DNA from: Lysinibacillus sphaericus
GTDB taxonomy: Bacteria > Bacillota > Bacilli > Bacillales_A > Planococcaceae
Length of the DNA: 64,000 nucleotides
Reading direction: 5' to 3'
NCBI RefSeq assembly: GCF_006864135.1
Contig: NZ_SADV01000010.1
Coordinates: 62,001-126,000, forward strand
Shown: one piece after another, positions 15,585-63,103 of the stretch
Layout: every line of letters starts with the position of its first letter
How positions within the stretch are numbered: the stretch's first letter is position 1
Position numbers and translations under genes: made by a program
The notes under the pieces: model-generated
Seen by the model: the letters and a program-made list of their open reading frames with translations, nothing else
The model's database searches: none
Told to the model about the DNA's origin: nothing

Positions 15585-17861
15585 TTGAAGAAGAGATTTT
15601 TATCAGCATCATTAGCGGTTATTTTAACATCATCTGCGGTCATTCCTGTATCTATGCAGGAAGTGCGCGCTGCCAATGAAACTAGCAGTCAAGTAGAAGT
15701 AAAAGAGGAACGTCTATCTGCTAAGGGATTTTTAGATTTAACTGTAACAGCTCTAACATTCCAACATGGATCAGAGACAATGCGTCAGCAAATCATTGAT
15801 ACGTGGGTAAAAGGCGAGGAATTAAAAGATTTAAGTGTCCATATTAAACGTGATGAAGCTGCACGTATTTTAGTAAGAGCTTTAAATAAAGAGGAAAAAG
15901 AAGCAACACTTGCTGAGTATCAAGAAAAAGCAAATAAACTTGGCTTATTTAACGGTCTGTCAACTAGTGAAACAATTTCTAAACAAGATGCGGTTAAAAT
16001 TTTAAATAATGCTAAAAATGTGAAAAATGGTGTCAGCAATAATGAAGGCGTGAAAGAAATTTCTGTCGAAGATTTCATGAAAAATCCAGGAAACGTTGGC
16101 TATGAACTTTCACCGGATGGCAATTACATAACTTTTAACGCTGCATGGGAAAACCGTAGAAACGTTTTCGTAAAAAAAATGAATGACGATAGCGAGCCAG
16201 TACGTGTATCTAGTTCAACGGATCGCGATATTGGTGGATCCTTCTGGAAAGATGATAATTTACTATATGTAAAGGATAAAGGTGGCGATGAAAACTTCCA
16301 CATTTATTCAACAACATTTAATGGTAATGAAGAAAAGGATTTAACACCTTATCCGAATGTAACAGTTGGGGTATTAAGTAGCTTAAAGGGCGTTAAAGAC
16401 GAAATCCTTATTATGATGAATAAAGAAGATGCAAAAGTCTTTGATGTGTACAAACTTAACCTAAAGACTGGTGAAACTACACATGTTGCGAAAAACCCTG
16501 GTAATATTACGAGCTGGATAGCAGACCGTGATGGAAATGTACGTATGGCAGTTGCTTCAGATGGTGTAGTAGGCACTGTTCTATATCGAGATTCAGAAAA
16601 AGATGAATTTAAGCCATTTATTGAAATGGAAGAAGGGGATCAAGTAACGCCACTTGCTTTCTCTAAAGACAATAAACATATTTTCGCAACTTCTAATAAA
16701 GGAAGAGACAAAGTAGAAGTAGTTAAATATGATTTAGAAGGTAAAGAAGAAGTAATTATGTCTAACTCAGAAGTAGATGTAACGGGTGTATTATATAGTG
16801 CTGAGAAAGATAAAGTATTGTACGGTGCATATGTATCAGATAAGACACATTATCAATTCTTTGACGAGGACTTTGAAAAACTATTCCGTAAAATTCAACA
16901 TAAATTAGGTGTTCAAGAAAGTGAATTAGGCATTAATGATTACAATAAAGAAATGACAAAATTCATTGTTAGCGTTTCTAGTGACACTGTTTACGGAAAA
17001 TATTATTACTATGATTCAACAACAGATGAAATGACAGAAATGGGAACGTTAAGCCCTTGGTTAAAACAAGAGGAGCTTGCAGAAATGCATCCAATTTCAT
17101 ATAAGAGTCGTGACGGCTTAACGATTAACGGTTATTTAACTTTACCGAAAAACAAAGAGGCTAAAAATCTCCCACTTATCGTCAACCCTCACGGTGGTCC
17201 GTGGGCACGTGATATGTGGGGCTTTAACCCAGAGGTACAGTTACTAGCTAACCGCGGTTATGCAGTACTACAAATGAATTTCCGTTCTTCAACTGGCTAT
17301 GGAAAAGAGTTTTTAGAGGCTGGTAATAAACAATGGGGTCTAAAAATCCAAGATGATATTACAGATGGCGTACAATGGGCAATCGACCAAGGGATAGCAG
17401 ACCCTAAACGCATCGGAATTTACGGTGCATCCTTTGGAGGTTATGCAACTTTAGCTGGGATTACATATACTCCAGATTTATATGCTGCAGCAGTGGACTA
17501 TGTAGGTGTATCCAACATCTTTACATTTTTAAATACAATCCCTCCGTATTGGGACACATTGCGTAACCAACTTTATAAGCGTGTGGGCAATCCAGAAGAA
17601 GATAAAGAGCTATTAACAGCCGCTTCACCTGTCTTCCATGTGGATAAAATTAAAACACCTTTATTTGTAGCTCAAGGTGCAAATGATCCACGTGTAAACA
17701 AAGCTGAATCTGATCAAATCGTTGAAGCATTACGTGCAAGAGGCGTTGATGTGGAATACATGGTGAAGGATAATGAAGGCCACGGTTTCCTTAATGAAGA
17801 AAACAGTATCGAATTCTACACTGCAATGCTAAAATTCTTAGACAGCCATTTAAAAAAATAA
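15585..17861 (+). CDS. Secreted S9-family prolyl oligopeptidase-like peptidase, copy 1
   Basis: 758 aa. Signal peptide about residues 1-29 ending near VRAANE; then an alpha-helical region (about 40-150) reminiscent of S-layer-homology repeats (AKGFLDLTVTALTF, SKQDAVKILNNA); a beta-propeller (about 155-480); and a C-terminal alpha/beta-hydrolase domain with catalytic S616 (GASFGG), D701 (GANDPR) and H733 (EGHGF). It should act outside the cell on peptides. Start TTG at 15585, 7 bases after GGAGG. The next gene is a tandem copy with an almost identical 5' third. Confidence 0.88.
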   Translation: MKKRFLSASLAVILTSSAVIPVSMQEVRAANETSSQVEVKEERLSAKGFLDLTVTALTFQHGSETMRQQIIDTWVKGEELKDLSVHIKRDEAARILVRALNKEEKEATLAEYQEKANKLGLFNGLSTSETISKQDAVKILNNAKNVKNGVSNNEGVKEISVEDFMKNPGNVGYELSPDGNYITFNAAWENRRNVFVKKMNDDSEPVRVSSSTDRDIGGSFWKDDNLLYVKDKGGDENFHIYSTTFNGNEEKDLTPYPNVTVGVLSSLKGVKDEILIMMNKEDAKVFDVYKLNLKTGETTHVAKNPGNITSWIADRDGNVRMAVASDGVVGTVLYRDSEKDEFKPFIEMEEGDQVTPLAFSKDNKHIFATSNKGRDKVEVVKYDLEGKEEVIMSNSEVDVTGVLYSAEKDKVLYGAYVSDKTHYQFFDEDFEKLFRKIQHKLGVQESELGINDYNKEMTKFIVSVSSDTVYGKYYYYDSTTDEMTEMGTLSPWLKQEELAEMHPISYKSRDGLTINGYLTLPKNKEAKNLPLIVNPHGGPWARDMWGFNPEVQLLANRGYAVLQMNFRSSTGYGKEFLEAGNKQWGLKIQDDITDGVQWAIDQGIADPKRIGIYGASFGGYATLAGITYTPDLYAAAVDYVGVSNIFTFLNTIPPYWDTLRNQLYKRVGNPEEDKELLTAASPVFHVDKIKTPLFVAQGANDPRVNKAESDQIVEALRARGVDVEYMVKDNEGHGFLNEENSIEFYTAMLKFLDSHLKK

Positions 17862-17869
17862 TAAATGAA

Positions 17870-17911
17870 AGAAGACTGTGCAGGAACTAAGTTTCCCGCG
17901 CAGTCTTTTAT
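17870..17911 (+). terminator. Terminator between the two peptidase copies
   Basis: AAGACTGTGC pairs with GCGCAGTCTT, followed by TTAT. The second gene has its own promoter right after. Confidence 0.6.
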
Positions 17912-17926
17912 CGTTAGGACCAATAA

Positions 17927-17954
17927 TTGACAAATATACTGAAGTTGGTATAAT
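17927..17954 (+). promoter_or_regulatory. Sigma-A promoter of the second S9 peptidase gene
   Basis: TTGACA, 16 bases, TATAAT, the same layout as upstream of copy 1, although the spacers differ. Confidence 0.75.
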
Positions 17955-18006
17955 TTCATTGTATTAACAATATGCATAATGCGTACTGATATAAGGAGGA
18001 ATCATT

Positions 18007-20283
18007 TTGAAAAAAAGGTTTTTATCAGCATCATTAGCGGTTATTTTAACATCATCTGCGGTTATTCCTGTATCTATGCAGGAAGTGCGCGCTGCCAATG
18101 AAACTAGCAGTCAAGTAGAAGTAAAAGAGGAACGTCTATCTGCTAAGGGATTTTTAGATTTAACTGTAACAGCTCTAACATTCCAACATGGATCAGAGAC
18201 AATGCGTCAGCAAATCATTGATACGTGGGTAAAAGGCGAGGAATTAAAAGATTTAAGTGTCCATATTAAACGTGATGAAGCTGCACGTATTTTAGTAAGA
18301 GCTTTAAATAAAGAGGAAAAAGAAGCAACACTTGCTGAGTATCAAGAAAAAGCAAATAAACTTGGCTTATTTAACGGTCTGTCAACTAGTGAAACAATTT
18401 CTAAACAAGATGCGGTCAAAATTTTAAACAATGCTAAAAATGTGAAAAATGGTGTCAGCAATAATGAAGGCGTGAAAGAAATTTCCATAGAAGATTTCAT
18501 GAAAAATCCAGGAAACGGCGGCTATCATCTTTCACCAGACGGAAATTACATTACTTATAAATCTGCATGGGAAAATCGTTCAAATGTGTTCGTAAAGAAA
18601 ATGAATGACGATAGTGAGCCAGTACGTGTATCTAGTTCAACGGATCGCGATATTGGTGGATCCTTCTGGAAAGATGATAATTTACTATATGTAAAGGATA
18701 AAGGTGGCGATGAAAACTTCCACATTTATTCCACAACATTTAACGGGAATGAGGAGAAGGATTTAACGCCATATCCGAATGTAACAGTTGCGTTATTAAG
18801 TGATTTACAGGGCGTTAAAGACGAAATCCTTATTACGATGAATAAAGAAGATGCAAAGGTCTTTGATGTGTACAAGCTTAATGTGAAGACTGGAGTAACT
18901 ACACATGTTGCGAAAAATCCAGGTAATATTGCAAGTTGGTTAGCAGATCATGATGGAAATGTACGTCTGGCAGTTACTTCAGATGGTGTAGAAGGAACTA
19001 TCCTTTACCGTGATTCAGAGAAAGATGAATTCAAACCGTTTATTGAAATGAAAGCAGGAGATGAAGTAATGCCACTTGCCTTCTCTAAAGACAATAAACA
19101 TATTTTCGCGACTTCTAATAAAGGAAGAGATAAAGTAGAAGTGGTGAAATATGATTTAGAAGGTAAAGAAGAAGTAATTATGTCCAACTCAGAAGTGGAT
19201 GTACTAGGTGTATTATACAGTCCTGAGAAAGATAAAATATTATATGGTGGCTATATAACAGATAAAGCACACTATCAATTCTTTGATGAAGACTTTGAAA
19301 AACTATTCCGTAAAATTCAAAACAAATTAGGTGTTCAAGAAAGTGAATTAAGCATTAATGATTACAACAAAGAAATGACAAAATTCATTGTTAACGTTTC
19401 TAGTGACACTGTTTACGGAAAATATTATTACTACGATTCAACAACTGATGAAATAAAAGAATTAGCAACGTTAGGCTCTTGGTTAAACCCAGAGGAGCTT
19501 GCAGAAATGCATCCAATTTCGTATAAGAGTCGTGATGGCTTAACGATTAACGGTTATTTAACTTTACCGAAAAACAAAGAGGCTAAAAATCTGCCACTTA
19601 TCGTCAATCCACACGGTGGACCATGGGCACGTGATATGTGGGGCTTTAATCCTGAGACGCAATTACTAGCAAACCGTGGTTATGCTGTACTACAAATGAA
19701 TTTCCGTTCCTCAGCTGGATACGGTAAAAAATTCCTTGAGGCTGGTAATAAGCAATGGGGTCTAAAAATTCAAGATGATATTACAGATGGCGTACAATGG
19801 GCAATCGACCAAGGCATTGCAGACCCTAAACGCATCGGAATTTATGGGGCATCCTTTGGAGGGTATGCAACATTAGCAGGTATCACTTATACACCAGATC
19901 TATATGCAGCCGCAGTTGATTACGTAGGTGTATCGAATATCTTTACGCTATTAAATACAATTCCTCCATATTGGGAAACAATGCGTGAAATGCTTTATGA
20001 GCGTGTAGGGCATCCAGAAAAAGATAAGGAGCTATTAACAGCCGCTTCACCTGTCTTCCATGTAGATAAAATTAAAACACCGCTATTTGTAGCTCAAGGT
20101 GCAAATGATCCACGTGTAAATAAGGCTGAGTCCGATCAAATCGTTGAAGCTTTACGTGCTAGAGGCGTTGAAGTGGAATACATGCTGAAAGATAATGAAG
20201 GCCATGGTTTCCATAATGAAGAAAACCGTATCGAGTTCTACACTGCCATGCTAAAATTCTTAGATAGCCATTTAAAAAAATAA
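18007..20283 (+). CDS. Secreted S9-family prolyl oligopeptidase-like peptidase, copy 2
   Basis: 758 aa, the same architecture as copy 1: signal peptide, helical N-terminal region, propeller, hydrolase domain with GASFGG, GANDPR and EGHGF in place. The first 160 or so residues are identical to copy 1, apart from synonymous or single changes; later parts alternate between near-identical and clearly diverged blocks (for example GYELSPDGNYITFNA versus GYHLSPDGNYITYKS). Start TTG at 18007 after AGGAGG. A tandem duplication with later divergence; both copies appear functional. Confidence 0.88.
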   Translation: MKKRFLSASLAVILTSSAVIPVSMQEVRAANETSSQVEVKEERLSAKGFLDLTVTALTFQHGSETMRQQIIDTWVKGEELKDLSVHIKRDEAARILVRALNKEEKEATLAEYQEKANKLGLFNGLSTSETISKQDAVKILNNAKNVKNGVSNNEGVKEISIEDFMKNPGNGGYHLSPDGNYITYKSAWENRSNVFVKKMNDDSEPVRVSSSTDRDIGGSFWKDDNLLYVKDKGGDENFHIYSTTFNGNEEKDLTPYPNVTVALLSDLQGVKDEILITMNKEDAKVFDVYKLNVKTGVTTHVAKNPGNIASWLADHDGNVRLAVTSDGVEGTILYRDSEKDEFKPFIEMKAGDEVMPLAFSKDNKHIFATSNKGRDKVEVVKYDLEGKEEVIMSNSEVDVLGVLYSPEKDKILYGGYITDKAHYQFFDEDFEKLFRKIQNKLGVQESELSINDYNKEMTKFIVNVSSDTVYGKYYYYDSTTDEIKELATLGSWLNPEELAEMHPISYKSRDGLTINGYLTLPKNKEAKNLPLIVNPHGGPWARDMWGFNPETQLLANRGYAVLQMNFRSSAGYGKKFLEAGNKQWGLKIQDDITDGVQWAIDQGIADPKRIGIYGASFGGYATLAGITYTPDLYAAAVDYVGVSNIFTLLNTIPPYWETMREMLYERVGHPEKDKELLTAASPVFHVDKIKTPLFVAQGANDPRVNKAESDQIVEALRARGVEVEYMLKDNEGHGFHNEENRIEFYTAMLKFLDSHLKK

Positions 20284-46731: not shown

Positions 46732-47084
46732 GGGGACGTTACGGATTCGACAGGGATGGTTCAAGCTTTGGTCGCGCGTCGGAGGTCTCGGCTCCGTCAT
46801 CAACGGAAGTTATATAATAACTGGCAAACAACAAAACTTAGCTTTCGCAGCGTAAGCTCTTAAGCGCTCTGCCTCTCTATCGCCCATGTAGAGAACGTGG
46901 GGCCCAACTTTAGTGGGATACGGTCGATGGTGCCACCTGAGTCACCGACAAGAGATTTCCAGGTTAGCGTACAGGACGCCTGTTTGTCGGCATAATGCTA
47001 CGTGAATCGTAAATAGGCAAACTACACGCGTAGAAGCTGAAGTATTGGAGTTTCTGGACGCGGGTTCGACTCCCGCCGTCTCCA
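46732..47084 (+). ncRNA. ssrA: Transfer-messenger RNA
   Basis: 5' end GGGGACGTTACGGATTCGAC and 3' end GGTTCGACTCCCGCCGTCTCC-A pair as the tRNA-like acceptor stem (GGGGACG/CGTCTCC). The tag reading frame resumes at GGC 46823 and encodes GKQQNLAFAA before TAA at 46853, giving the tag (A)GKQQNLAFAA, with the hydrophobic end recognised by ClpXP. After the discriminator A the sequence is TAC, so the CCA end is not encoded, unlike ssrA of Bacillus subtilis. The right neighbour is an integrase, so the 3' end is probably part of an attachment site. Confidence 0.96.
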
Positions 47085-52228: not shown

Positions 52229-52406
52229 ACTGCACTTTGTTATATGAATTTGTTTTATTTAAATGGAAAAAACGGGTATTTAATTATTTGGGCAAAGATT
52301 ACCTGAAGATTATTTATTCTATTTCATGGTATTTATTTATATCTACAAATTTTTAGTTTTGAATGAACTATGAAATTAAAGAATACAACTTGTTTTATCT
52401 ATTAGG

Positions 52407-52462
52407 AACAAGTATTATTTCTGTTACTTTTAAAAATAACATAAATAATACTTGTTTTTTTA
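52407..52462 (+). terminator. Strong terminator-like hairpin in the leader of the S-like/M-like trio
   Basis: AACAAGTATTATTT pairs perfectly with AAATAATACTTGTT, with an inner stem GTTACTTTT/AAAAATAAC, followed by TTTTTTATTTG. It ends 40 bases before the first start codon. It could block read-through into the defence cluster, or act as an attenuator in its leader. Confidence 0.7.
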
Positions 52463-52501
52463 TTTGTTTTAATTTATAGTATTCACAAGGAGGTGCTGAA
52501 C

Positions 52502-53101
52502 TTGAAGATTTCGGACAAAGCGAAAGTATCGGTTGGTTCTCAGGCAAAACGATTTGAAACAGAGGATGAGGCAGCACAAAAGGTGACCGTATTAAATTCG
52601 AAAGATTTCAATGAGGCTCTAGGAGAGAGCTATCGGGGAAGTGGAGAAGAACAGCAAATTAAGGTTACAGAAGTAGGTTTACAAAAGTTAAATACTGTAG
52701 GCGGAGAGCGTTTGGTGATTCATTTACAACTTAGAAAAGCAGCAATTTTATCAGAAAAGGTTGAAGGTTACATTGTTCCTGCAAACTTCGCGACTGTTGA
52801 ATTAGATGGGGATGTATATCCACCATTTTTTGTTTGGTACTTCAATCATCACCAAGAAATGCGCAAACAAATTGAAGCAATGACAGACAGTAGTCGTACA
52901 GTTGCAATGCTAAAAATCAGCGGGATTAAGGATTTAGAAATGGTATTGCCGTCATATGAAAAGCAAGTGTTAATTGGAGACATTCATATGATACGTATTC
53001 AAAAGATAAAACTTCAAACAGAAATAAATGAGATGGAAGAAAAGTTAATGAATGAGAAGCTGAAAAATGCGGTAGGAGATGCTAATAATTATGAAGTCTG
53101 A
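52502..53101 (+). CDS. HsdS-like half protein (single target-recognition domain)
   Basis: 199 aa. The second half has the shape of a type I specificity subunit: GYIVPANFATVELD, YPPFFVWYFNHHQEMRKQIE, LKISGIKDLEMVLPSYEKQ (compare the family pattern of ISxxxLKxIxIPLPxxxxQ) and a long terminal helix (TEINEMEEKLMNEKL). Real HsdS has two such halves; this has one, so it would need to dimerise or pair with the downstream M-like protein. TTG start at 52502, 6 bases after AAGGAGGTG; an in-frame GTG at 52493 overlaps that site. Overlaps the next gene by 11 bases. Confidence 0.7.
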   Translation: MKISDKAKVSVGSQAKRFETEDEAAQKVTVLNSKDFNEALGESYRGSGEEQQIKVTEVGLQKLNTVGGERLVIHLQLRKAAILSEKVEGYIVPANFATVELDGDVYPPFFVWYFNHHQEMRKQIEAMTDSSRTVAMLKISGIKDLEMVLPSYEKQVLIGDIHMIRIQKIKLQTEINEMEEKLMNEKLKNAVGDANNYEV

Positions 53102-53288
53102 ACTAATTTGGCAACGTGCAGATAGTTTAAGAGCCGATTTAATTGGCTGCCATCTAGATGGATTGAAAGCATTATGTTTTTTAAAATATTTTAATACGGA
53201 AATAAATTTAGATGAGCTACAAAACTTTAGTAAGCCGACTTTAAAGGAAAGAATACAATTTTCTTTACAAGGAAGTGAAATGGATTGA
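53091..53288 (+). CDS. 65-aa orphan protein between S-like and M-like genes
   Basis: Starts MKSELIWQRADSLRADLIGC and is mostly helical and charged; no family recognised. It overlaps the upstream gene and its TGA overlaps the TTG start of the M-like gene (TTGA), so it is translated as part of a coupled trio. An earlier in-frame ATG at 53079 is possible; GGAG at 53073-53076 is too near to it and too far from 53091, so the start is uncertain. Confidence 0.65.
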   Translation: MKSELIWQRADSLRADLIGCHLDGLKALCFLKYFNTEINLDELQNFSKPTLKERIQFSLQGSEMD

Positions 53289-54769
53289 ATAAAAATTCAG
53301 ACGTACAATCAATTTTTAATTTGATGGACAGGTTTAGAGGGGTTATTAATACGCCGGCTATCGTCAAAATATGTATTAATCTTTTAGCCTTTAAAGACTT
53401 AAGTAATAAATTTGAACAACAAATCAAATCCACTTTACCAGGCAACACCTCAATAGAAGTGGCTTGGAATAATCGAATGGAAAAAGAATTATATATTCAG
53501 CCAGTTGCTCATGAATTAGGTTATGAAATCGCCCCGACTTTATTATGGTCTTATTTAGTGAACTTAGCACAAAATGAATCGCCATTATTTGAAGTTTCAT
53601 TGGTGAAGAAAAGTATCGAAGAATTACAAATGTCTTCGTATTCATTAGGTACAAATCAAATTTTTGGTCATTTATTTGAGGAATCATTATTAATAAGAGA
53701 TGTTCCGGGCCTATCTAATGAAGAAAAAGCGGTGCTATTAAAGAGGCTTATGACAGGGTTAGATAGAATTGCAGATGATAAGAGGTTATTCGAGTATTTA
53801 ATAAACTCTCAAAGCCAAAGTGCGAAAATGGGTGGAGAATATCTCACTTCTTCATCAATTGAAAGATTATTAAAAGCTTTTCTAACAAGTTATAAAGGTG
53901 ATATGAGTGAGATTTATGATCCAACTGTAGGAACTGCTTCATTATTATTGGCAGCCCCATCAGAAAGAGTGGGAAAATATGTTGGGCAAGAAATTAATCC
54001 GGAAGTGCTGAATCTAGCTTATATGAATTTGTTAATGCATGATATTGATTATCGTAAAATTGATTTACAACTAGGCAACACATTAATTGATCCGAAACAT
54101 TTAGGGCAACAATATGATGTAGCAATTGGAGAGCCGCCTTTTGGGGGAATGTGGAGTCCAGAACAGCTAGAGGGTAGTGATCCGAGATTTGCTATATATG
54201 AGAAAGTAGCTCCAAAATCTAAAACGGATTTTGCTTATATTCAACATATGTTATACCAGTTAAAAGAAGATGGCGTTTGTTTCTCAATTCATAATATAGG
54301 TGTATTATTTAGGGGGGCATCAGAAGCGGATATTCGTAGACAAATTGTTAACCACAATATGTTAGATGCGGTAATTACATTGCCGAATGGTCTATATGCT
54401 CCTTACACATCAATTCCCGTATGCCTATTAATATTTAAGAAAAAGCGTAGTCATCGAAATGTTTTGTTTATCGATGCTTCAAATGACTATATTACTGAGC
54501 AACGGGCTAATAACCAATTGTCGGAATCACATATCCATAGAATTGTTGAAACATATAATTCTTATGAAGATGTTGAACGTTATGCAAGAGTAGTTTCGCT
54601 TGATGAAATTGAAGAAAATGAATTCAATTTAAATCTAGCCCGATATGTAGATAATAGAGAGCCTGAAGAAACTATTGATATAATGTTATTGGAGGCGGAA
54701 ATAGCAGCGAAAAAAGCAATGTTAGAAAACGTTGAAAAAGAACTTCGGGAAAAATTGTTATTACTGTAA
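53285..54769 (+). CDS. HsdM-like protein with altered methyltransferase motifs
   Basis: 494 aa in the layout of type I N6-adenine methylases: helical N-terminal domain, GGEYLTSSSIERLLKAFL (compare GQFRTPRHIINMIVEL in HsdM), motif I and motif IV. Motif I is YDPTVGTASLLLAA (D212), where the usual DPxxGxGG/DPAMGSAG is changed; motif IV is GEPPFGG (E283) instead of NPPF. With Glu for Asn at the catalytic site, methyl transfer is doubtful, while the fold and possibly SAM binding are kept. Start TTG at 53285, overlapping the orphan by 4 bases. A coiled-coil-like tail follows residue 465. Confidence 0.8.
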   Translation: MNKNSDVQSIFNLMDRFRGVINTPAIVKICINLLAFKDLSNKFEQQIKSTLPGNTSIEVAWNNRMEKELYIQPVAHELGYEIAPTLLWSYLVNLAQNESPLFEVSLVKKSIEELQMSSYSLGTNQIFGHLFEESLLIRDVPGLSNEEKAVLLKRLMTGLDRIADDKRLFEYLINSQSQSAKMGGEYLTSSSIERLLKAFLTSYKGDMSEIYDPTVGTASLLLAAPSERVGKYVGQEINPEVLNLAYMNLLMHDIDYRKIDLQLGNTLIDPKHLGQQYDVAIGEPPFGGMWSPEQLEGSDPRFAIYEKVAPKSKTDFAYIQHMLYQLKEDGVCFSIHNIGVLFRGASEADIRRQIVNHNMLDAVITLPNGLYAPYTSIPVCLLIFKKKRSHRNVLFIDASNDYITEQRANNQLSESHIHRIVETYNSYEDVERYARVVSLDEIEENEFNLNLARYVDNREPEETIDIMLLEAEIAAKKAMLENVEKELREKLLLL

Positions 54770-54810: not shown

Positions 54811-54832
54811 GCCCCTACAATATTGTAGAGGC
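54811..54832. promoter_or_regulatory. Palindrome between the M-like gene and hsdM
   Basis: GCCCCTACAATATTGTAGAGGC is an 11-bp inverted repeat with one mismatch (each half: GCCCCTACAAT, ATTGTAGAGGC). Followed by TTGGATTTCC, not a proper T-run, so an operator is as likely as a terminator. Confidence 0.5.
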
Positions 54833-54866
54833 TTGGATTTCCTTTACTAAAAAGGAGCAGAATTGA

Positions 54867-56363
54867 ATGATTACAGGTGAAATTAAAAATAAAATTGATA
54901 ATATTTGGACAACGTTATGGACGGAAGGAAATACAAACCCGTTAACAAACATCGAACAATTAACATATTTACTATTCATTAAAGGTTTAGATGAAGGTGA
55001 ATTGACAAAAGAAAATGAGGCAGCATTTTTAGGGCTTGACTATAAAGGCATCTTCTCGGAAATGCCAGCAGACTTTACAGATATGCAAAAGCAACACTGG
55101 CCAATGATGCGCTGGACACAGTTTAAAAACTTACCTGCACAAGAAATGTATGAAGTAATGGTGAACACAATATTCCCATTCATCAAATCATTAGGTGGTA
55201 AGGAGGAATCGGCTTTTTCAAAGTACATGAAAGATGCGATGTTCCAAATTAACAAGCCAGCAACATTACAAAAGGTTGTAACAGCACTTGATAGTATTCC
55301 AATGGAAGACCGTGATACACAAGGGGACATTTACGAGTATTTATTATCTAAGCTGCAAACATCTGGTACAAATGGTCAATTCCGAACACCGCGCCACATT
55401 ATTAATATGATTGTAGAGTTAATGAAGCCATCACCAGAGGATATAATTATCGATCCAGCAATGGGTTCAGCAGGATTCCTCGTATCAGCGAGTGTGTATT
55501 TACGTAAAAATCATAACGATTTATTTTTAGTACAAGGGCTAAATGAGCATTTCCATAATGATATGTTTTTCGGAAACGATATGGATACGACGATGTTGCG
55601 TATCGGTGCGATGAATATGATGCTACACGGCGTAGATGCACCGAATATTGATTACCGTGACTCATTATCTGAGGAAAATAAAGAAGCAGATAAATATACA
55701 TTAGTATTAGCGAATCCACCGTTCAAAGGCTCACTAGACTATGAAGCAGTTTCAAATGATTTACTAAAAGTAGCGAAAACGAAGAAGACAGAGCTACTGT
55801 TCCTATCACTTATTTTACGTACGTTAAAAGCTGGTGGACGCGCGGCAGTTATAGTACCAGATGGCGTATTATTCGGTAGCTCAAATGCCCATAAAGCGAT
55901 TCGTAAAGAAATTATTGATAACAACAAATTAGAAGCGATTATTTCTATGCCTAGTGGTGTATTCAAACCATATGCAGGAGTTTCTACAGGTATTATGATT
56001 TTCACGAAAACAGGTACAGGCGGAACAGATAATGTATGGTTCTATGATATGAAAGCTGACGGGTACTCATTAGATGATAAACGCACAGAGATTGAAGCGA
56101 ATGATATAGAGGATATTATTGAACGTTTCGGGAACTTACAAAATGAAGCAGAACGCAAACGGACAGACCAATCATTCTTTGTACCAGTAGATGAAATTCG
56201 TGAGCAGGGGTATGACTTGTCGATTAATAAGTATAAAGAGGTTGAGTATGAGGAAGTAGAGTATTCAAGTCCCAAAGAAATTTTAATTAGTATAAATGAA
56301 ATAGAAAAGGAAATTCAGGCAGGGATTAAAGAGTTGGAGGGATTATTAAATGCCAACTTATAA
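54867..56363 (+). CDS. hsdM: Type I restriction-modification methylase subunit HsdM
   Basis: 498 aa N6-adenine methyltransferase with an intact core: HsdM N-terminal helical domain (1-150), GQFRTPRHIINMIVEL, motif I DPAMGSAGF (from D196), and motif IV NPPF (N283). Forms M2S with HsdS to methylate, and with HsdR to cut. ATG after AAAAGGAGC. It overlaps hsdS by 14 bases. Its second catalytic site position is the same residue number (283) as the altered one in the upstream M-like protein. Confidence 0.95.
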   Translation: MITGEIKNKIDNIWTTLWTEGNTNPLTNIEQLTYLLFIKGLDEGELTKENEAAFLGLDYKGIFSEMPADFTDMQKQHWPMMRWTQFKNLPAQEMYEVMVNTIFPFIKSLGGKEESAFSKYMKDAMFQINKPATLQKVVTALDSIPMEDRDTQGDIYEYLLSKLQTSGTNGQFRTPRHIINMIVELMKPSPEDIIIDPAMGSAGFLVSASVYLRKNHNDLFLVQGLNEHFHNDMFFGNDMDTTMLRIGAMNMMLHGVDAPNIDYRDSLSEENKEADKYTLVLANPPFKGSLDYEAVSNDLLKVAKTKKTELLFLSLILRTLKAGGRAAVIVPDGVLFGSSNAHKAIRKEIIDNNKLEAIISMPSGVFKPYAGVSTGIMIFTKTGTGGTDNVWFYDMKADGYSLDDKRTEIEANDIEDIIERFGNLQNEAERKRTDQSFFVPVDEIREQGYDLSINKYKEVEYEEVEYSSPKEILISINEIEKEIQAGIKELEGLLNANL

Positions 56364-57561
56364 ATTAATTGAATTAATTGATGATGTAATTAGTGGTGAG
56401 TGGGGACAAGATGTTGAAGATGAAACTAATGGGATTAAAGTTATTAGAACAACTAATTTTTCTAACACAGGGAAATTAGATTTAGATAAGGAAGTTGTTT
56501 TTCGAAATATCGATAAAGCTAAAGTAGCAAAAAAGAAGCTACAATTGGGTGATATCATAATAGAAAAATCTGGAGGTAGCCCTGATCAGCCAGTAGGACG
56601 AGTAGTGTATTTTGAAGAGGATGAGTTATATCTTTGTAATAATTTCACAAGTGTTTTAAGGCCAAAAAAAGAGCTAGTAGTTCCGAAGTTTTTATTGTAT
56701 GTACTGTTTAATTTGCATCGAACAAGAAAAGTTTTAAAATTCCAAAATAAGACTACGGGTATTATTAATCTGAAGTTAGAACAATACCTTAATCAAATTG
56801 ATGTAATAATACCTTCATTAGAAATTCAGAAAAAAATAGTTTTAACTCTGGATCAAGCATATGCATTAATAGAAAAACGCCAATCCCAAATCACAGCATT
56901 AGACGAATTAACACAAAGTTTGTTTTTAGAGATGTTTGGAAACCCAATTCAAAATTCATTAGAGTGGAAAGTTCAAAAATTAGAAGAGGTTGTTGAAAAA
57001 GACAGTTCTATTTCATATGGTATAGTTCAAACTGGTCAAGAAATTGATGGGGGTATACCAGTAATTAGACCAGTGGATTTCAATGATGAAATAGATGTAG
57101 GGAAATTAAAGAAAACTAGCGTAGAAATATCAAATGCATATTCTAGAACAATTTTAAAAGGTAATGAATTATTAATTACTGTACGAGCTAATATTGGGAG
57201 TGTTATTTTAGCAACTTCTGAAATGGAAGGTATAAATGTTACCAGGGGTATAACACCAATTAAATTCAACGGAAAAATTATTGATCGTCGTTATGCTATG
57301 TATTTATTTAAAAACATAAATATGCAAAGATATTTGAAGGAACTATCCAAAGGGATTACGTTAATTCAGTTAAACATGTCGGATTTAAGAAAAGTTCCTA
57401 TAATATTACCACCAATTGAAATGCAGTTGGATTTTGCTTTAAAAATTGATCTTATTCAAAAACAGAGGAAAATGTTGAAAAAATCTTTAGTGGAAACGGA
57501 CGAACTATACAACTCCCTACTCCAAAAAGCCTTCAAAGGCGAGCTATTCCAAAAACAATAG
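56350..57561 (+). CDS. hsdS: Type I specificity subunit HsdS
   Basis: 403 aa with two target-recognition domains, each followed by a conserved helix: first TRD ending about 170 (IDVIIPSLEIQKKIVLTLDQA), second starting with NPIQNSLEWKVQKLEEV and ending (LRKVPIILPPIEMQLDFALKID). The last residues LLQKAFKGELF are typical. Determines the two-part DNA target. ATG overlaps hsdM by 14 bases. Target sequence cannot be predicted from the protein by eye. Confidence 0.93.
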   Translation: MPTYKLIELIDDVISGEWGQDVEDETNGIKVIRTTNFSNTGKLDLDKEVVFRNIDKAKVAKKKLQLGDIIIEKSGGSPDQPVGRVVYFEEDELYLCNNFTSVLRPKKELVVPKFLLYVLFNLHRTRKVLKFQNKTTGIINLKLEQYLNQIDVIIPSLEIQKKIVLTLDQAYALIEKRQSQITALDELTQSLFLEMFGNPIQNSLEWKVQKLEEVVEKDSSISYGIVQTGQEIDGGIPVIRPVDFNDEIDVGKLKKTSVEISNAYSRTILKGNELLITVRANIGSVILATSEMEGINVTRGITPIKFNGKIIDRRYAMYLFKNINMQRYLKELSKGITLIQLNMSDLRKVPIILPPIEMQLDFALKIDLIQKQRKMLKKSLVETDELYNSLLQKAFKGELFQKQ

Positions 57562-57587: not shown

Positions 57588-60500
57588 ATGTTGAACTTCG
57601 ATTTTTTAAAGGATAAACAATCATTTAAAAGCTTTTCTAATGCTTGCTTTGAAGCGGAGAAGGCAATGCAAGTAAGCCCTGCCACGGTTGCGATTTTGTC
57701 GCGCCGTGCGCTAGAGCTTTCGGTGAAATGGGTGTATCAGTTTGATAATGATGTGAAAGTACCCTATCAAGATAATCTTTCAAGTTTGATTCATGATCGT
57801 CACTTTTTAGGGATTATAGATGAAGAGTTATTACCGATGATGAAATATGTTGTGAAGCTTGGAAATGCAGCTGTACATACGAATGTTGCGATTACACGTG
57901 ATGAAGCTGTACTAACTCTTCATAATTTACATCAATTTGTTTCGTGGATTGATTATTGCTACGCAGAGGAATATACGGCTACTGATTTTGATGAAGCGTT
58001 ATTATACGATGCAGATTACAAACGAGAGCGTCCTGAGGAATTAAGTAATTTATATGAAAAGTTAAGTGCGAAAGACCAATCACTTGAAGAATTACGTAAG
58101 CAAAATGAAGAACTTCGTGAGTTGTTAACAGCAAACCGAGTAGAAGCACAGGAAGATTATAATTTTGATGTGGATACGATATCGGAATTCGAAACACGTA
58201 AACGCTATATCGACCTAGATTTAAAATTAGCAGGCTGGGAAATCGGTAAAAATGTTGAGCTAGAGTATCCTGTAGCGGGTATGCCAAACGTAAAGGGTGA
58301 AGGCTTTGTCGATTATGTACTGCGCGGTAAAAATGGCAAAATTTTAGCCGTTGTCGAAGCGAAACGTACATCTCGTGATCCGAAAGAGGGACGAAATCAA
58401 GCGAAGTTGTATGCGGATTGTGTACAGCAAGTGCAAGGATTACGACCAATTATTTTCTATACAAATGGTTTCGAAACATTTATTTGGCATGATCATTACG
58501 CTGCTCGAAAAGTGTCCGGTTTTTATACACAAGATGAGCTGCAATTATTAATCGACCGTAGTCATTTAAAACAGCCGTTAACAAATATCAACATTAACGA
58601 CGACATTACAAACCGCTACTATCAAAAAGAGGCGATTTTAGCGATTTGCGATACGATTAGCAATAACCAACGTAAAGGCCTACTTGTCATGGCAACGGGT
58701 AGTGGTAAAACACGAACGGCTATTTCGTTAGTTGATGTGTTAACGAACAATCATTGGATTAAAAATGTGCTTTTCCTTGCAGATCGTACCTCATTAGTAA
58801 AACAAGCGTTTCGTAACTTTAATACATTGCTGCCGAACTTGTCGTTAAGCAATATGTTAGAGAAAAAATCAGATCCTGAAGCCGCTCGTATGGTATTTTC
58901 TACATATGCAACGATGATGAATGCCATTGATGAAGTGAAGCGTAAAGATGGCAATCGCTTATTTACAGTCGGTCATTTTGATTTGATTATTATTGACGAA
59001 TCACATCGTTCGATTTATCAAAAGTATAAAAGTATTTTTGATTATTTTGATGGGATGCTTGTCGGCTTAACCGCAACACCAAAAGATGAGCTAGACAAAA
59101 ATACGTATACGATTTTCGATTTGGAAAATGGTGTCCCAACCTTTGCTTATGAATTATCAAAAGCGGTGGAGGATGAGTATTTAGTCGATTATCGAACGCG
59201 TGAAACGACGATGAAAATTTTAGATGATGGTATTCGCTATGAGGATTTATCAGAAGATGAAAAAGATGAGTTTGATGAAATTTTCGAAGACGAAACGCAA
59301 GTAAAAGATATTGATAGTTCCGCCATTAACAACTTTGTATTTAACTCAAATACAATTGATCAAGTATTGAATGACTTAATGGAACACGGCTTGAAGGTTG
59401 CAGGCGGTGATAAATTAGGGAAGACGATACTTTTTGCGAAAAACCATAAACACGCAATGGCTATTAAAGAACGTTTTGATTTGAAATTCCCTGAATACGG
59501 GGGAGATTTTGCAGAAGTAATCGATTATAGTGTGGAATATTACCAATCGTTAATTGATGATTTTTCTGATACTGATAAAATGCCACAAATTGCTATTTCA
59601 GTGGATATGCTAGATACAGGAATCGATGTACCAGATGTATTGAATTTAGTATTCTTCAAAAAGATACGCTCGAAAACAAAATTCTGGCAAATGATTGGTC
59701 GAGGTACACGTCTACGTAAAGATTTATTTGGTCCTGGGATGGACAAGGAGTACTTTTTGATTTTTGACTATTTAAGAAACTTTGAGTACTTCCGTGAAAA
59801 TGAAAAAGGGGAACAAACAAAAATTACCGAAACGTTAACGGAAAAGCTATTTAATTCGAAAGTTGATATTGTCCGTGAATTGCAATCGCTTCAATATCAA
59901 GAAGGAACGTTTATTTCATACCGTGAGCAGTTATTGAAAGAGATTTTATCGGATGTCCGCGCCTTAAATGATGAAAACTTCCGTGTGCGACAGTATTTAC
60001 AATATGTCCATAAATATCAAAATGAGGAAAGCTGGCAAGCGTTATCAGTCGTTCAAACAAATGAAGTAAAAGAAAATATATCTCCGTTAATTATACCAAT
60101 TGAGGATGATGAATTAGCCAAACGCTTTGACCTTCTAATGCTGACGATTGAAATAGCAAGTTTGCAATCAAATAACGCAACGAAACCAATTCGCCGTGTT
60201 GTAGATACAGCTGAGGCTCTTTCGAAGCTAGGGACAATTCCGCAAGTATTAGCACAAAAAGATGTCATCGATCAAGTGCGAACAACTGAGTTCTGGGAAA
60301 CAGCTTCGTTAGCAGATTTAGAAAAGGTACGTTTAGCGATGCGTGATTTAATTCGTTATATCGAACGTTCAAATCAGAAAATATACTATACGAATTTCCA
60401 AGATGAAGTAATGACTGTTGCCGAAAATGCTTCTATTTTAAATGTCAATGACCTCAAAAGCTATCGCAAAAAGGTCGAGCATTATTTAAAAGAGCATCAG

Positions 60501-60926
60501 CACGAAGATACGTTGGCAATTTACAAGCTGCGTAACAATAAGCCATTAACGAAGCAGGATGTCTCCTATTTAGAACAAATCTTGTGGACAGAGCTTGGTT
60601 CAAAAGAGCAGTACGAAAAGGACTATGGCGACACACCAGTTACAAAGCTTGTGCGTAAAGTAGTAGGGCTAGACCGCCAAGCTGCCGTTGAAGCATTTTC
60701 AGCATTTATTTCAGAGCAAAACCTTAATCTCCAGCAATCGCAATTCGTCGAGACAATTATTGATTACATCGTAAGAAACGGTACACTTGAACGCCAAGCA
60801 TTGCAGCAAGACCCGTTTAGTTCAGTAGGGGGGATAATGGTTGTGTTCAAAGACGAGTTACCAAAAGCGCGAGGGATTTTGGATGTTATTGATCGGATAA
60901 ATCGTAATGCGGTGGATATTTCGTAG
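57588..60926 (+). CDS. hsdR: Type I restriction endonuclease subunit HsdR
   Basis: 1112 aa. N-terminal DUF4145-like domain (about 5-125, SRRALELSVKWVY, KLGNAAVHTN), coiled coil (155-185), PD-(D/E)xK nuclease (D242, E257-A-K259), then the SF2 translocase: Walker A ATGSGKT (369-375), DESH (470-473), GLTATP and QMIGRGTRLR, and a C-terminal EcoEI-like domain. ATG after AAAGGAGATGAG, 26 bases from hsdS. Cuts unmethylated DNA after translocation. Confidence 0.95.
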   Translation: MLNFDFLKDKQSFKSFSNACFEAEKAMQVSPATVAILSRRALELSVKWVYQFDNDVKVPYQDNLSSLIHDRHFLGIIDEELLPMMKYVVKLGNAAVHTNVAITRDEAVLTLHNLHQFVSWIDYCYAEEYTATDFDEALLYDADYKRERPEELSNLYEKLSAKDQSLEELRKQNEELRELLTANRVEAQEDYNFDVDTISEFETRKRYIDLDLKLAGWEIGKNVELEYPVAGMPNVKGEGFVDYVLRGKNGKILAVVEAKRTSRDPKEGRNQAKLYADCVQQVQGLRPIIFYTNGFETFIWHDHYAARKVSGFYTQDELQLLIDRSHLKQPLTNININDDITNRYYQKEAILAICDTISNNQRKGLLVMATGSGKTRTAISLVDVLTNNHWIKNVLFLADRTSLVKQAFRNFNTLLPNLSLSNMLEKKSDPEAARMVFSTYATMMNAIDEVKRKDGNRLFTVGHFDLIIIDESHRSIYQKYKSIFDYFDGMLVGLTATPKDELDKNTYTIFDLENGVPTFAYELSKAVEDEYLVDYRTRETTMKILDDGIRYEDLSEDEKDEFDEIFEDETQVKDIDSSAINNFVFNSNTIDQVLNDLMEHGLKVAGGDKLGKTILFAKNHKHAMAIKERFDLKFPEYGGDFAEVIDYSVEYYQSLIDDFSDTDKMPQIAISVDMLDTGIDVPDVLNLVFFKKIRSKTKFWQMIGRGTRLRKDLFGPGMDKEYFLIFDYLRNFEYFRENEKGEQTKITETLTEKLFNSKVDIVRELQSLQYQEGTFISYREQLLKEILSDVRALNDENFRVRQYLQYVHKYQNEESWQALSVVQTNEVKENISPLIIPIEDDELAKRFDLLMLTIEIASLQSNNATKPIRRVVDTAEALSKLGTIPQVLAQKDVIDQVRTTEFWETASLADLEKVRLAMRDLIRYIERSNQKIYYTNFQDEVMTVAENASILNVNDLKSYRKKVEHYLKEHQHEDTLAIYKLRNNKPLTKQDVSYLEQILWTELGSKEQYEKDYGDTPVTKLVRKVVGLDRQAAVEAFSAFISEQNLNLQQSQFVETIIDYIVRNGTLERQALQQDPFSSVGGIMVVFKDELPKARGILDVIDRINRNAVDIS

Positions 60927-61269: not shown

Positions 61270-62253
61270 GTGGCTACTTATACAAAAGTTAATATGAATG
61301 AATTTATAAAAAAGCATATCGATTTAGATTCAGACGTTACTAAGAAAGCTCGAATTAGTAGAGATTTTTTATATAAGCAATTAGAAGAATTACCTAGTAA
61401 AGCGGTGAATTTCCCGCGATTATATCCAAGCAAACATATTTATAATTATGGTTCGTTTTCGAGGAAAACAAAGATTCGGCCATTAGATGATATTGATTTC
61501 ATGTTGGTCTTTGCAGCAGATGGAACAACATATCAGGATTTTGGTGATGAGGTAAAATTAACTGTTCCAGAAGAAGCAACTAATTTATACAAGTTGCGAG
61601 ATGAAGATGGTTATTTAAATTCAAGAAAAGTAGCAAATAAAATTAGAGATAATATATCTAAAGTTTCTCAATATAAAAAAGCGGATATTCGATCAAGCCA
61701 AGAAGCGGTAATCTTAAGCTTAACTAGTTATGATTGGACCTTCGATATTATACCAGCATTGAAGACAACAGAAGAAGCAGACGGAAGGTCCTATTATTTG
61801 ATTCCAAATGGAAATGGTCATTGGAAGAAAACAGACCCTCGAATCGATCAATCAAGAGTAACCGAGACAAACCAATCTACAGATTTTAATGTTATTGAAT
61901 TTATTCGAATTATAAAGTATTGGAATAAAATACAAAAGATTAATATTTCGTCGTATTTGATAGAAAACATAGTTTTGAATTACGTTGAAAGTTACTACAT
62001 TTGTTCTAATAGAAAGAAACAATTAAGTTCTTTTTTTGGCTATTTAAAAGATGCTATTTTTGAACCTGTATTAGACCCTAAAGGATTACAAGGAAATTTG
62101 AATGAATTAGAGTACACTAAGAAAAAATTAATACAAAATAAGGCTGTTGCTTGTGAATCTGCAGTTGATAAAGCATTGGAGTTTGAAATGGCTGTAAATT
62201 ATGAAAATGCTGATAAAAAGTGGCGTGTGGTTTTTGGTGATGATTATGAATGA
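61270..62253 (+). CDS. CBASS-type CD-NTase (SMODS-like nucleotidyltransferase)
   Basis: 327 aa. The polymerase-beta-type core is IYNYGSFSRKTKI (G61-S62), D74-I-D76 in RPLDDIDFMLVF, and a third carboxylate in SYDWTFDIIPAL (about D159). This G-S...D-x-D spacing and length fit the SMODS family that makes cyclic oligonucleotide second messengers on phage infection. Start GTG at 61270, 9 bases after AGAGG. Overlaps the next gene by 8 bases. No Cap2/Cap3 ubiquitin-like partners are seen, so it would be a minimal two-gene system. Confidence 0.85.
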   Translation: MATYTKVNMNEFIKKHIDLDSDVTKKARISRDFLYKQLEELPSKAVNFPRLYPSKHIYNYGSFSRKTKIRPLDDIDFMLVFAADGTTYQDFGDEVKLTVPEEATNLYKLRDEDGYLNSRKVANKIRDNISKVSQYKKADIRSSQEAVILSLTSYDWTFDIIPALKTTEEADGRSYYLIPNGNGHWKKTDPRIDQSRVTETNQSTDFNVIEFIRIIKYWNKIQKINISSYLIENIVLNYVESYYICSNRKKQLSSFFGYLKDAIFEPVLDPKGLQGNLNELEYTKKKLIQNKAVACESAVDKALEFEMAVNYENADKKWRVVFGDDYE

Positions 62254-63103
62254 ATTGTTTCCTATTAAAGAAAGACAAAATACTCCGGAAAACATTATTT
62301 ATTTACGGGGACAAAGACAGGCATACAAACAAGCTAAAAACTTTTATATGTGGAGAATGTTACTGAGTATAGCTTGGCCGATAATAGCTGTTATTTTATA
62401 TTTTACTTTTGAAAATGAAATTGCTAACGCCGTAATAGTAGTTAGTTCTCTGATTTTGATTGCAACATTTATTATAGAATACTATGAAAAGGCTTTTACT
62501 AAAATGGGGGCAACCATACAAGAATCTTTTGATACGAATGTGTTTAATTTAAAGTGGAATTCACACTTAATAGGTGGAAAAATTAGTAAAGAAGATATTG
62601 TTTTGCTAGCTGAAAAAGAAAAAACAGAGGAATATAAATTGAAAGATTGGTATACAGGGATAGCTACTGATAATGAATCTGAATACACATTAAAAGCACA
62701 AAGAATGAATACGGCATGGTCCATAAAACAAAAAGAGAAATTTAGTATGTTTCTCTTTTTATCAGGTATTCTAATTTTCACTTCTTTGGTGATCATTGGA
62801 TGTTATACCGGCTTTGAATTATATGATTTTTTAATAATGTTGTTCTTCCCAACTGTTTCATTGTTTATTTACCTTTTTAAGGGATGGTTTGACTTTCTTC
62901 AACAAGTTAAAGAGTTAAAAAGAATTACATCGTCTATTGATGATTTGTTAGATAAGCAAACTAAGGTTACTAAACAAGAATTACGTTCTATTCAAGATTC
63001 TATTTATATTCATGGAAGGATACCTAATAACATTATTCCAGATGTATTATATAATAGAATGAGAAGCAAACTTGAACAATTATTTAGGCATACAAATAAG
63101 TAA
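62246..63103 (+). CDS. S-4TM family putative pore-forming effector
   Basis: 285 aa with two pairs of membrane helices: WRMLLSIAWPIIAVILYFTF and AVIVVSSLILIATFIIEYY near the N-terminus, then FLFLSGILIFTSLVIIGCYTG and FLIMLFFPTVSLFIYLFKGW, with a soluble part between (about 85-170) and a cytosolic tail. This is the layout of S-4TM proteins, known partners of SMODS nucleotidyltransferases and predicted to open membrane pores when bound to the nucleotide. ATG 62246 is within the 3' end of the synthase gene; an ATG at 62240 is also possible. Confidence 0.82.
   Translation: MNELFPIKERQNTPENIIYLRGQRQAYKQAKNFYMWRMLLSIAWPIIAVILYFTFENEIANAVIVVSSLILIATFIIEYYEKAFTKMGATIQESFDTNVFNLKWNSHLIGGKISKEDIVLLAEKEKTEEYKLKDWYTGIATDNESEYTLKAQRMNTAWSIKQKEKFSMFLFLSGILIFTSLVIIGCYTGFELYDFLIMLFFPTVSLFIYLFKGWFDFLQQVKELKRITSSIDDLLDKQTKVTKQELRSIQDSIYIHGRIPNNIIPDVLYNRMRSKLEQLFRHTNK

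Follow-up and report, generated by a model that had tools for sequence, protein, structure and literature searches.

We describe a three-gene head in front of a complete type I restriction-modification (RM) operon in a 64,000-nucleotide stretch of Lysinibacillus sphaericus DNA (contig NZ_SADV01000010.1, positions 62,001 to 126,000), which is called the window here and numbered from its first letter. The trio, at 52502..54769 on the + strand, encodes a half-size specificity protein with a single target recognition domain (half-S, or S_short), a small orphan protein, and an HsdM-like paralogue that has lost its catalytic motifs (pM). We propose, with moderate confidence, that half-S and pM form a methylation-free, operator-binding half-S2-pM2 complex that controls its own operon and, through transcriptional read-through, the defense genes behind it. 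What we observed directly is the gene order, the motif loss, the selection acting on pM at other loci, the pairs of operator-like sites, and the variation of these sites in step with S_short.

Results

The trio precedes an intact type I operon

The half-S gene (52502..53101, 199 amino acids) starts with a TTG codon preceded by AGGAGG; an alternative GTG start at 52493 falls within this ribosome site. Its frame overlaps by 11 bases that of the orphan (53091..53288, 65 amino acids, or 69 if translation begins at an alternative in-frame ATG at 53079), which overlaps by 4 bases the frame of pM (53285..54769, 494 amino acids). Behind pM, on the same strand, lie hsdM (54867..56363), with an intact NPPF motif and of a different HsdM family from that of pM, hsdS (56350..57561), with two specificity stretches, and hsdR (57588..60926). 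A first-pass annotation of this DNA had described three overlapping genes for a single-domain half-S, a 65-residue unknown, and an HsdM-like protein upstream of a complete hsdM-hsdS-hsdR, an arrangement that we confirm. The short gap that it placed between pM and this operon is also present, and its length is 97 rather than 98 bases. In database scans, pM matched the Pfam family N6_Mtase (1e-77), and half-S matched the PADLOC type I specificity subunit (E 7e-10), with no Pfam family passing its cut-off for half-S. The Pfam scan returned no helix-turn-helix (HTH) family at E 1 or better for any of the three trio proteins.

pM has lost its catalytic motifs and is under purifying selection in two groups of relatives

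By sequence comparison, pM aligned over residues 8 to 485 with the solved HsdM 3lkd (E 1e-59), and the HsdM domain order was kept. Its motif IV reads EPPF, compared to NPP[FY] in 17 of 17 fetched HsdM relatives, and GGEY replaces the pocket motif AGEF; the label of pseudo-M given to it in the first-pass annotation was right. A half-S together with a dead M was found in four further settings, namely, plasmids of the C. futsaii group, L. paracasei, Ligilactobacillus salivarius, and a locus designated L140. We aligned eight pM sequences (window, futsaii, paracasei, four from L. salivarius, and L140) with eight canonical HsdMs, and both the catalytic asparagine of NPP[FY] and the AGEF motif were lost in all eight pM. 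The replacements were DPPY and NGRT in C. futsaii, DPPY and SGSL in L. paracasei, VPPF and PDES in L140, and, in L. salivarius, either DIPL or DMPL with SEFS or DPPI or DPPM with DNYD. Eight more L. salivarius pM sequences read DPPI or DPPM, again with the asparagine gone. According to the excerpted report on PacII, the same two motifs form the pocket of that enzyme, and its methylation is impaired by the substitutions F171A, N276A/F279A, F180A, and N285A/Y288A (PMC9613975). Since motif I is still recognizable in most pM, binding of S-adenosylmethionine may persist.

The ratio of nonsynonymous to synonymous substitution rates (dN/dS) for pM was 0.06 to 0.25 in L. salivarius (15 pairs, eight of which, between two clades, had a saturated dS above 1.5) and 0.16 to 0.31 in the futsaii group (15 pairs). 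pM is maintained by purifying selection in these two groups. The first-pass annotation had allowed that homologues might prove to be scattered single genes or an ordinary hsdMS pair broken by mutation; the relatives, with pM dN/dS of 0.06 to 0.31, are neither. No close relative of the window trio appeared in the contig and profile searches. A scan of genome contigs with the window pM returned 30 relatives, all of them distant, and a scan of viral contigs with the window pM alone gave two relatives. With a pM profile, the best 80 of 130 viral loci contained 80 M-like frames with NPP[FY] and one without the motif; no half-S-pM pair, and a single half-S-like frame (L176), was seen in those 80. 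The 57 phage records matching pM were all less than 60% identical to it. In a tree of 44 rows, the window, futsaii, and paracasei pM fell within a clade of 33 rows (support, 95/100) consisting mostly of HsdMs from half-S operons. The active hsdM products of the window and the futsaii group fell outside the clade that holds their pM, as did the pM of L140.

Half-S belongs to a widespread hsdS_short family

Compared against plasmids, the window half-S matched 14 records, ten from staphylococci or Mammaliicoccus and four from lactobacilli, and the published hsdRSMS systems are among the staphylococcal ones. The excerpted report on these systems describes hsdS_short as an invariable protein of 191 amino acids, separate from the full-length S (PMC10030836). 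As judged from its sequence, the window half-S is such a single-domain S protein of about 190 residues, separate from the full-length S, and the family profile matches one half of the solved HsdS 1yf2. The M-like gene that follows the window half-S is not a catalytic hsdM but that of pM, which lacks NPP[FY]. Modeling with AlphaFold2 without an alignment gave a mean predicted local distance difference test (pLDDT) score of 37 for half-S and 53 for the orphan.

A half-S profile built from the window, futsaii, and paracasei sequences matched 28 of 398 genomes of the class, the genome of the window included, and 26 of these 28 places were frames of 234 amino acids or less. A wider profile (A3), which also picks up full-length S genes, had matches in 29 genomes out of 261 at the order level and in 31 out of 398 at the phylum level. 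A script applied to 27 and 31 regions from these matches identified a half-S frame in 24 and 31, respectively; L112 to L114 were left out because it found no S_short frame there. In 54 of the resulting 55 loci, some of which are closely related to each other, half-S adjoins canonical hsd genes, which are arranged as R-Ss-M-S, Ss-R-S-M, or Ss-M-S-R (in some cases with a gap before S), L145 having an odd order. In L143 (9094-10713), one of these 54, the HsdM next to half-S reads NMPF, not NPPF. The exception among the 55 is L140, with half-S and pM. The published hsdS_short family is far wider than Staphylococcus and occurs in many type I operons of Firmicutes.

The half-S-pM pair heads several unrelated defense systems

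The futsaii group comprises 12 plasmid records with identities of at least 95%, of which we opened seven. Half-S is present in six of the seven, L057 having an IS30 gene upstream and no annotated or otherwise found half-S, and hsdM-hsdS-hsdR follows pM in six of the seven, with a shortened hsdM in L052. The order in L. paracasei is half-S, pM, hsdM, hsdS, and hsdR. L. salivarius is represented by 31 plasmid records, and each of the 12 that we opened carries a half-S gene and a pM without NPP. In ten of these 12 (L231, L232, L234, L235, and L237 to L242), a divergent site-specific integrase gene and a small third gene, membrane-like by eye, complete a constant head, and the cargo behind it varies. 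PADLOC, applied to four records, identified type III-like methylases in L231, a IIG-like enzyme in L232, BREX genes BrxA/B/C in L234, and the candidate system PDC-M33 in L235. Judged by annotation only, type I systems with several hsdS genes and xerA are present in L230 and L233, BREX in L242, the same genes as in L235 in L237, and others in L238 to L241. An inverted repeat, AGACACAGGA ... TCCTGTGTC in L230, is conserved at the border of the L. salivarius cargo and may be an exchange site. Outside the lactobacilli, L140 (8572-15457) combines half-S, a pM with VPPF, and a HEAT-repeat gene, and a C5 methylase and an EcoRII-type enzyme are encoded downstream of them.

The pair therefore has hsdMSR next door in the futsaii group, L. 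paracasei, L230, and L233 and lacks it where the cargo is BREX, type III-like, or IIG-like or where the pair lies near EcoRII; no full-length HsdS is annotated at the latter pM loci. This co-occurrence, on which the first-pass annotation had let its idea depend, is conserved with and without hsdMSR in Lactobacillaceae plasmids and in L140, of the same phylum. The conserved pairing of a half-S with a dead M supports the suggestion, made in the same annotation, of an M-S-like DNA-recognition complex that does not methylate.

In six of the seven opened futsaii records (L051, L052, L055, L056, L058, and L059), a holin-like toxin gene is annotated antisense to and 0.3 to 0.8 kb 5' of half-S. A model in which the head guards a toxin, as in CreTA, was set aside rather than disproved: the window shows no toxin frame that is obvious by eye, the paracasei locus and the opened L. 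salivarius loci have none annotated immediately upstream, and it is the S_short promoter rather than a toxin that the operators flank.

Bipartite sites flank many predicted half-S promoters and vary with S_short

When the upstream regions of half-S genes were read by eye, repeated 18-bp palindromes were found. We scored them by the likelihood ratio for a palindromic site pair at 12 widths, from -200 to +50, against 100 dinucleotide shuffles, with the other upstream regions of the same loci as controls; L089 and L099 were removed as near-duplicates beforehand. This score replaced an earlier one (26 loci, arms of 7, 60 shuffles) that missed short-arm sites and in which 10 of the 26 loci had no shuffle as good. 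At most 2 of 100 shuffles were as good in 22 of 57 S_short regions and in 17 of 203 control regions (p 3e-7), and with the width restricted to 18 or 20, the counts were 20 of 57 and 4 of 203 (p 2e-11); since the loci are related, these p values overstate their independence. At a threshold of 5 of 100 shuffles or fewer, a pair was scored in 17 of 22 R-Ss-M-S loci, 3 of 7 Ss-R-S-M loci, 5 of 7 Ss-M-S-R loci, 2 of 4 pM loci, and not in the locus of odd order. The four pM loci scored 1/100 (futsaii), 5/100 (window), 62/100 (L140), and 70/100 (paracasei, L054), and six L. salivarius loci, scored separately, gave 0 to 3 of 100. Loci with an HsdM of the NPPFSLDK type (L126 to L130, L133 to L139, and L141 to L144) were mostly without the 18-bp pair; their operator, if any, would be of another form.

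Of the 32 loci with a scored pair, 24 had their best predicted sigma-70-like promoter between the two sites, compared to 12.5 expected. Among ten L. salivarius loci (nine distinct), the arm columns were invariant at 20 of 20 positions, the cores at 8 of 16, and the whole region at 89 of 164; parts of the promoter were likewise invariant. In a Mantel-type test on 26 loci, operator distance followed S_short given HsdM (partial r 0.45, 0 of 5,000 permutations), and the reverse test, HsdM given S_short, gave r -0.10 (p 0.84). The effect was smaller within the 19 R-Ss-M-S loci alone (r 0.25, p 0.01). For this test, 12 of 38 loci were out (L146, L099, and ten with an operator score below 20.5 or absent), and the sites were chosen automatically, so that a few look doubtful.

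The half-S proteins of L053, L099, and L146 are 93 to 97% identical and share GTAG-N10-CTAC sites with drifting cores; between L099 and L053, the full S proteins have only 32% identity. GTAG-N10-CTAC is present twice at the operon of Staphylococcus xylosus TMW 2.1324 (L146). The motifs assigned to this strain in Table 1 of the excerpted report are GCATC and ACCN5RTGT (PMC10030836); as they do not include GTAG-N10-CTAC, these sites seem to be unmethylated there. By analogy with engineered half-S enzymes such as EcoR124INT, as described in the excerpts available, a half-S dimer would be expected to recognize a site of twofold symmetry.

The window has a single putative operator

The best predicted sigma-70-type promoter of the trio, by consensus score alone, lies at 52390..52418 on the + strand (TTGTTT, 17 bp, TATTAT), with a second candidate, TTGTTT/TATAGT, just downstream of it by eye. 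A long dyad at 52404..52459 (+) would form a hairpin followed by a T run and has at its tip the putative operator GTTACTTTTAAAAATAAC (52423..52440, no strand assigned), a GTTA-N10-TAAC site in single copy. The site forms the tip of a 22-pair hairpin (-18.5 kcal/mol, z -5.4, 0 of 200 shuffles), coincides with the transcription start expected from the best predicted promoter, and by eye resembles, with its hairpin, a staphylococcal hsdR terminator with an embedded operator (L053).

Scored with a matrix of 11 other loci, which were selected after the site had been noticed, GTTACTTTTAAAAATAAC ranked first in the 64 kb; with either the six loci of nearest half-S or all 21 site-yielding R-Ss-M-S loci, it ranked second. 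The higher-ranking site in both of these less biased sets, at 39185, is within a coding frame. In leave-one-out runs, the upstream region was recovered in 11 of 11 loci. The site is the sole perfect match to its pattern in the genome, and when as many as two mismatches are allowed, this pattern occurs no more often than a control (4 and 4 versus 3 and 4).

The orphan and the surroundings of the trio

The orphan resembles the HsdM N terminus weakly: 1 of 500 shuffles was as good in a pairwise local alignment, and the match to an HsdM N-terminal profile, at 4.5 bits with 3 of 500 shuffles higher, was not significant. It matched no family in Pfam or PADLOC-type family scans, and by eye it does not resemble the small third gene in the L. 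salivarius head. With no convincing homologue in plasmids and this resemblance alone, we have dropped the suggestion of the first-pass annotation that it is a conserved third subunit.

The island that carries the trio sits directly behind a transfer-messenger RNA gene (46732-47084), and between 46732 and 52000 we noted frames that, named by eye, we take to be two integrases, one excisionase, and one primase/helicase of 558 amino acids. The 97-base leader between pM and hsdM contains a palindrome, CCCTACAATATTGTAGAGG, at 54815-54845, which is unlike the half-S operators. Directly 3' of hsdR, a cyclase of the cyclic-oligonucleotide-based antiphage signaling system (CBASS) type and an effector with four transmembrane segments are encoded at 61270-63103. 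Elsewhere in the window, two very similar 758-residue genes stand in tandem at 15585-20283 and presumably encode S9-peptidase-like proteins.

Discussion

According to our model, half-S would dimerize and be joined by two pM, yielding an M2S-like clamp incapable of methylation. By binding the 18-bp bipartite palindromes in its own promoter region, this clamp would act as an autorepressor, and read-through across the short gap would extend its control to the defense genes behind. In the ancestral S_short systems the partner would be a normal HsdM, and the complex would read the HsdM supply; in pM systems, a dedicated dead copy as the partner would free the module to head unrelated systems. We infer the complex and its stoichiometry, as well as operator binding, repression, and downstream control, from the observations above. 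Because similar half-S-pM heads precede several unrelated defense systems, the pair is more suggestive of a portable switch that turns immunity on and off than of a weapon, and pM pairs that head BREX or type III-like cargo favor control over a role as an enzyme subunit. Both roles may coexist in S_short-M systems. The first-pass annotation had proposed a sensor of DNA state, a modulator of HsdR, or a separate defense system; we judge transcription control through bipartite operators to be likelier.

Several observations weigh against this model. At many S_short loci the signal for operators at their own promoter is strong, and the window has one copy: no second copy was found, its pair score of 5/100 reflects the two arms of the long dyad (width 23) and not an operator pair, and in the earlier pair score 37 of 60 shuffles were as good. 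By the pair score, neither the paracasei locus (L054) nor L140 has an operator pair, and only 2 of 16 NPPFSLDK-type HsdM loci have one at 5/100 or fewer. Such sites were found before the downstream genes in none of nine leaders (six L. salivarius, futsaii, paracasei, and window), so that control of the cargo would need read-through. Constraint on pM is weaker than that on hsdM (dN/dS 0.02 to 0.14, 11 pairs). The pM rows of the tree are long branches that drew program warnings, and this applies to the placement of the window pM as well. Finally, in the excerpted report, proper methylation in Escherichia coli requires hsdS_short even with a foreign promoter, and hsdS_short alone on a plasmid was toxic (PMC10030836), which points to a part in the enzyme.

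These last results bear on the main rival, that S_short-pM is an accessory subunit of the neighboring type I enzyme, able to join M2S or to swap with it and to adjust assembly, fidelity, or restriction. We regard it as rather unlikely, though a serious contender. S_short adjoins canonical hsd genes at 54 of 55 loci, and in E. coli the loss of hsdS_short spoils methylation at the S_long motif, a defect that operator control cannot explain because a foreign promoter was used, unless removal of the first gene lowered HsdM translation, the excerpted report giving transcript measurements only (PMC10030836). The pair, however, also heads BREX, type III-like, and IIG-like cargo and lies near EcoRII, where no full-length HsdS is annotated for it to join; the hsdM of the window is of another family than pM, and the operators would be left unexplained. 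They might instead be real sites that are bound by another regulator, of the host or encoded by the element, or that act as RNA hairpins or terminators. Several of them, the window site included, do lie in terminator-like hairpins (computed for the window, seen by eye for the others), but the sites track the divergence of S_short and not that of HsdM, their arms are better kept than their cores, and a promoter between the sites in 24 of 32 loci would be odd for terminators; we consider this explanation improbable.

We find it still harder to view the trio as what is left of an hsdR-S_short-M-S operon that has been decaying since a second type I system took over. The upstream hairpin, which by eye is like an hsdR terminator, the single operator, the position of the window pM in a clade of S_short-type HsdMs, and the lack of any close relative found for the trio would fit such a history; three intact, coupled frames would not, nor would the catalytic loss seen also outside this lineage, where dN/dS is well below 1 for both of the groups tested. 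A methyltransferase of altered chemistry (e.g., yielding N4-methylcytosine) in a noncanonical M1-M2-S enzyme is very improbable. PacII-type systems do combine two different M subunits, and DPPY is retained in the futsaii and paracasei pM; however, M1 and M2 of PacII have NPPF and NPPY with AGEF and AAEF in the excerpted report (PMC9613975), whereas pM has EPPF, DPPY, DIPL, DMPL, DPPI, DPPM, or VPPF without AGEF. Operator control by half-S-pM could also serve as a tripwire, an extension that we consider unlikely. Because Ocr and ArdA bind an M-S complex, as the excerpted report states (PMC9613975), an operator-bound S_short-pM decoy might by analogy be pulled off by phage or plasmid anti-restriction proteins of this kind, switching on a second-line system; with the same low likelihood, the cargo thus released would be BREX, type III-like, CBASS-linked type I, and other systems.

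Half-S proteins and hsdS_short are already known, the latter described in one paper that we found. Searches of the open-licence literature turned up no description of hsdS_short or of an inactive HsdM acting as a regulator, nor of a pair of dead HsdM and half-S, of S_short operators, or of such a head unit for exchangeable defense cargo. If correct, operator control by half-S-pM would explain the role of the puzzling hsdS_short subunit, would mean that transcription regulators arose from type I enzymes, and would reveal a reusable control head of swappable defense islands. How type I systems manage entry into new cells and overexpression is a standing question, which the operators make directly testable. 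To our knowledge, the regulators described for type I systems are few; RptR is one of them.

The controller (C) proteins of type II RM systems are HTH dimers encoded by a small head gene with paired palindromic operators at its own promoter. Half-S-pM would share with them the head gene, the operators, and the control of linked defense genes; it differs in being a complex of a half-S and a dead methyltransferase, with no HTH found in the trio. RptR is similarly a repressor linked to type I RM defense islands, but it is a small homodimer acting on TAGCTA direct repeats, and its abstract mentions no M-S parts (PMC12255303). PacII-type systems resemble the trio in tying two different M subunits to type I S subunits; according to the excerpted report, both of their M subunits are catalytic, with one full-length S between them (PMC9613975), whereas pM is dead and has its own half-S. 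The closest likeness in gene order is to the staphylococcal hsdRSMS systems, in which a half-size S gene with its own conserved family stands directly before hsdM (PMC10030836, in excerpt) and in which we found a similar operator pair upstream of hsdS_short (L053, L099, and L146). The partner HsdM of those systems has intact motifs, unlike the dead M of the window, and their authors, in the same excerpts, propose a stabilizing rather than a regulatory role. Behind the window trio, moreover, a separate hsdMSR follows, and in its relatives the head also precedes systems that are not of type I.

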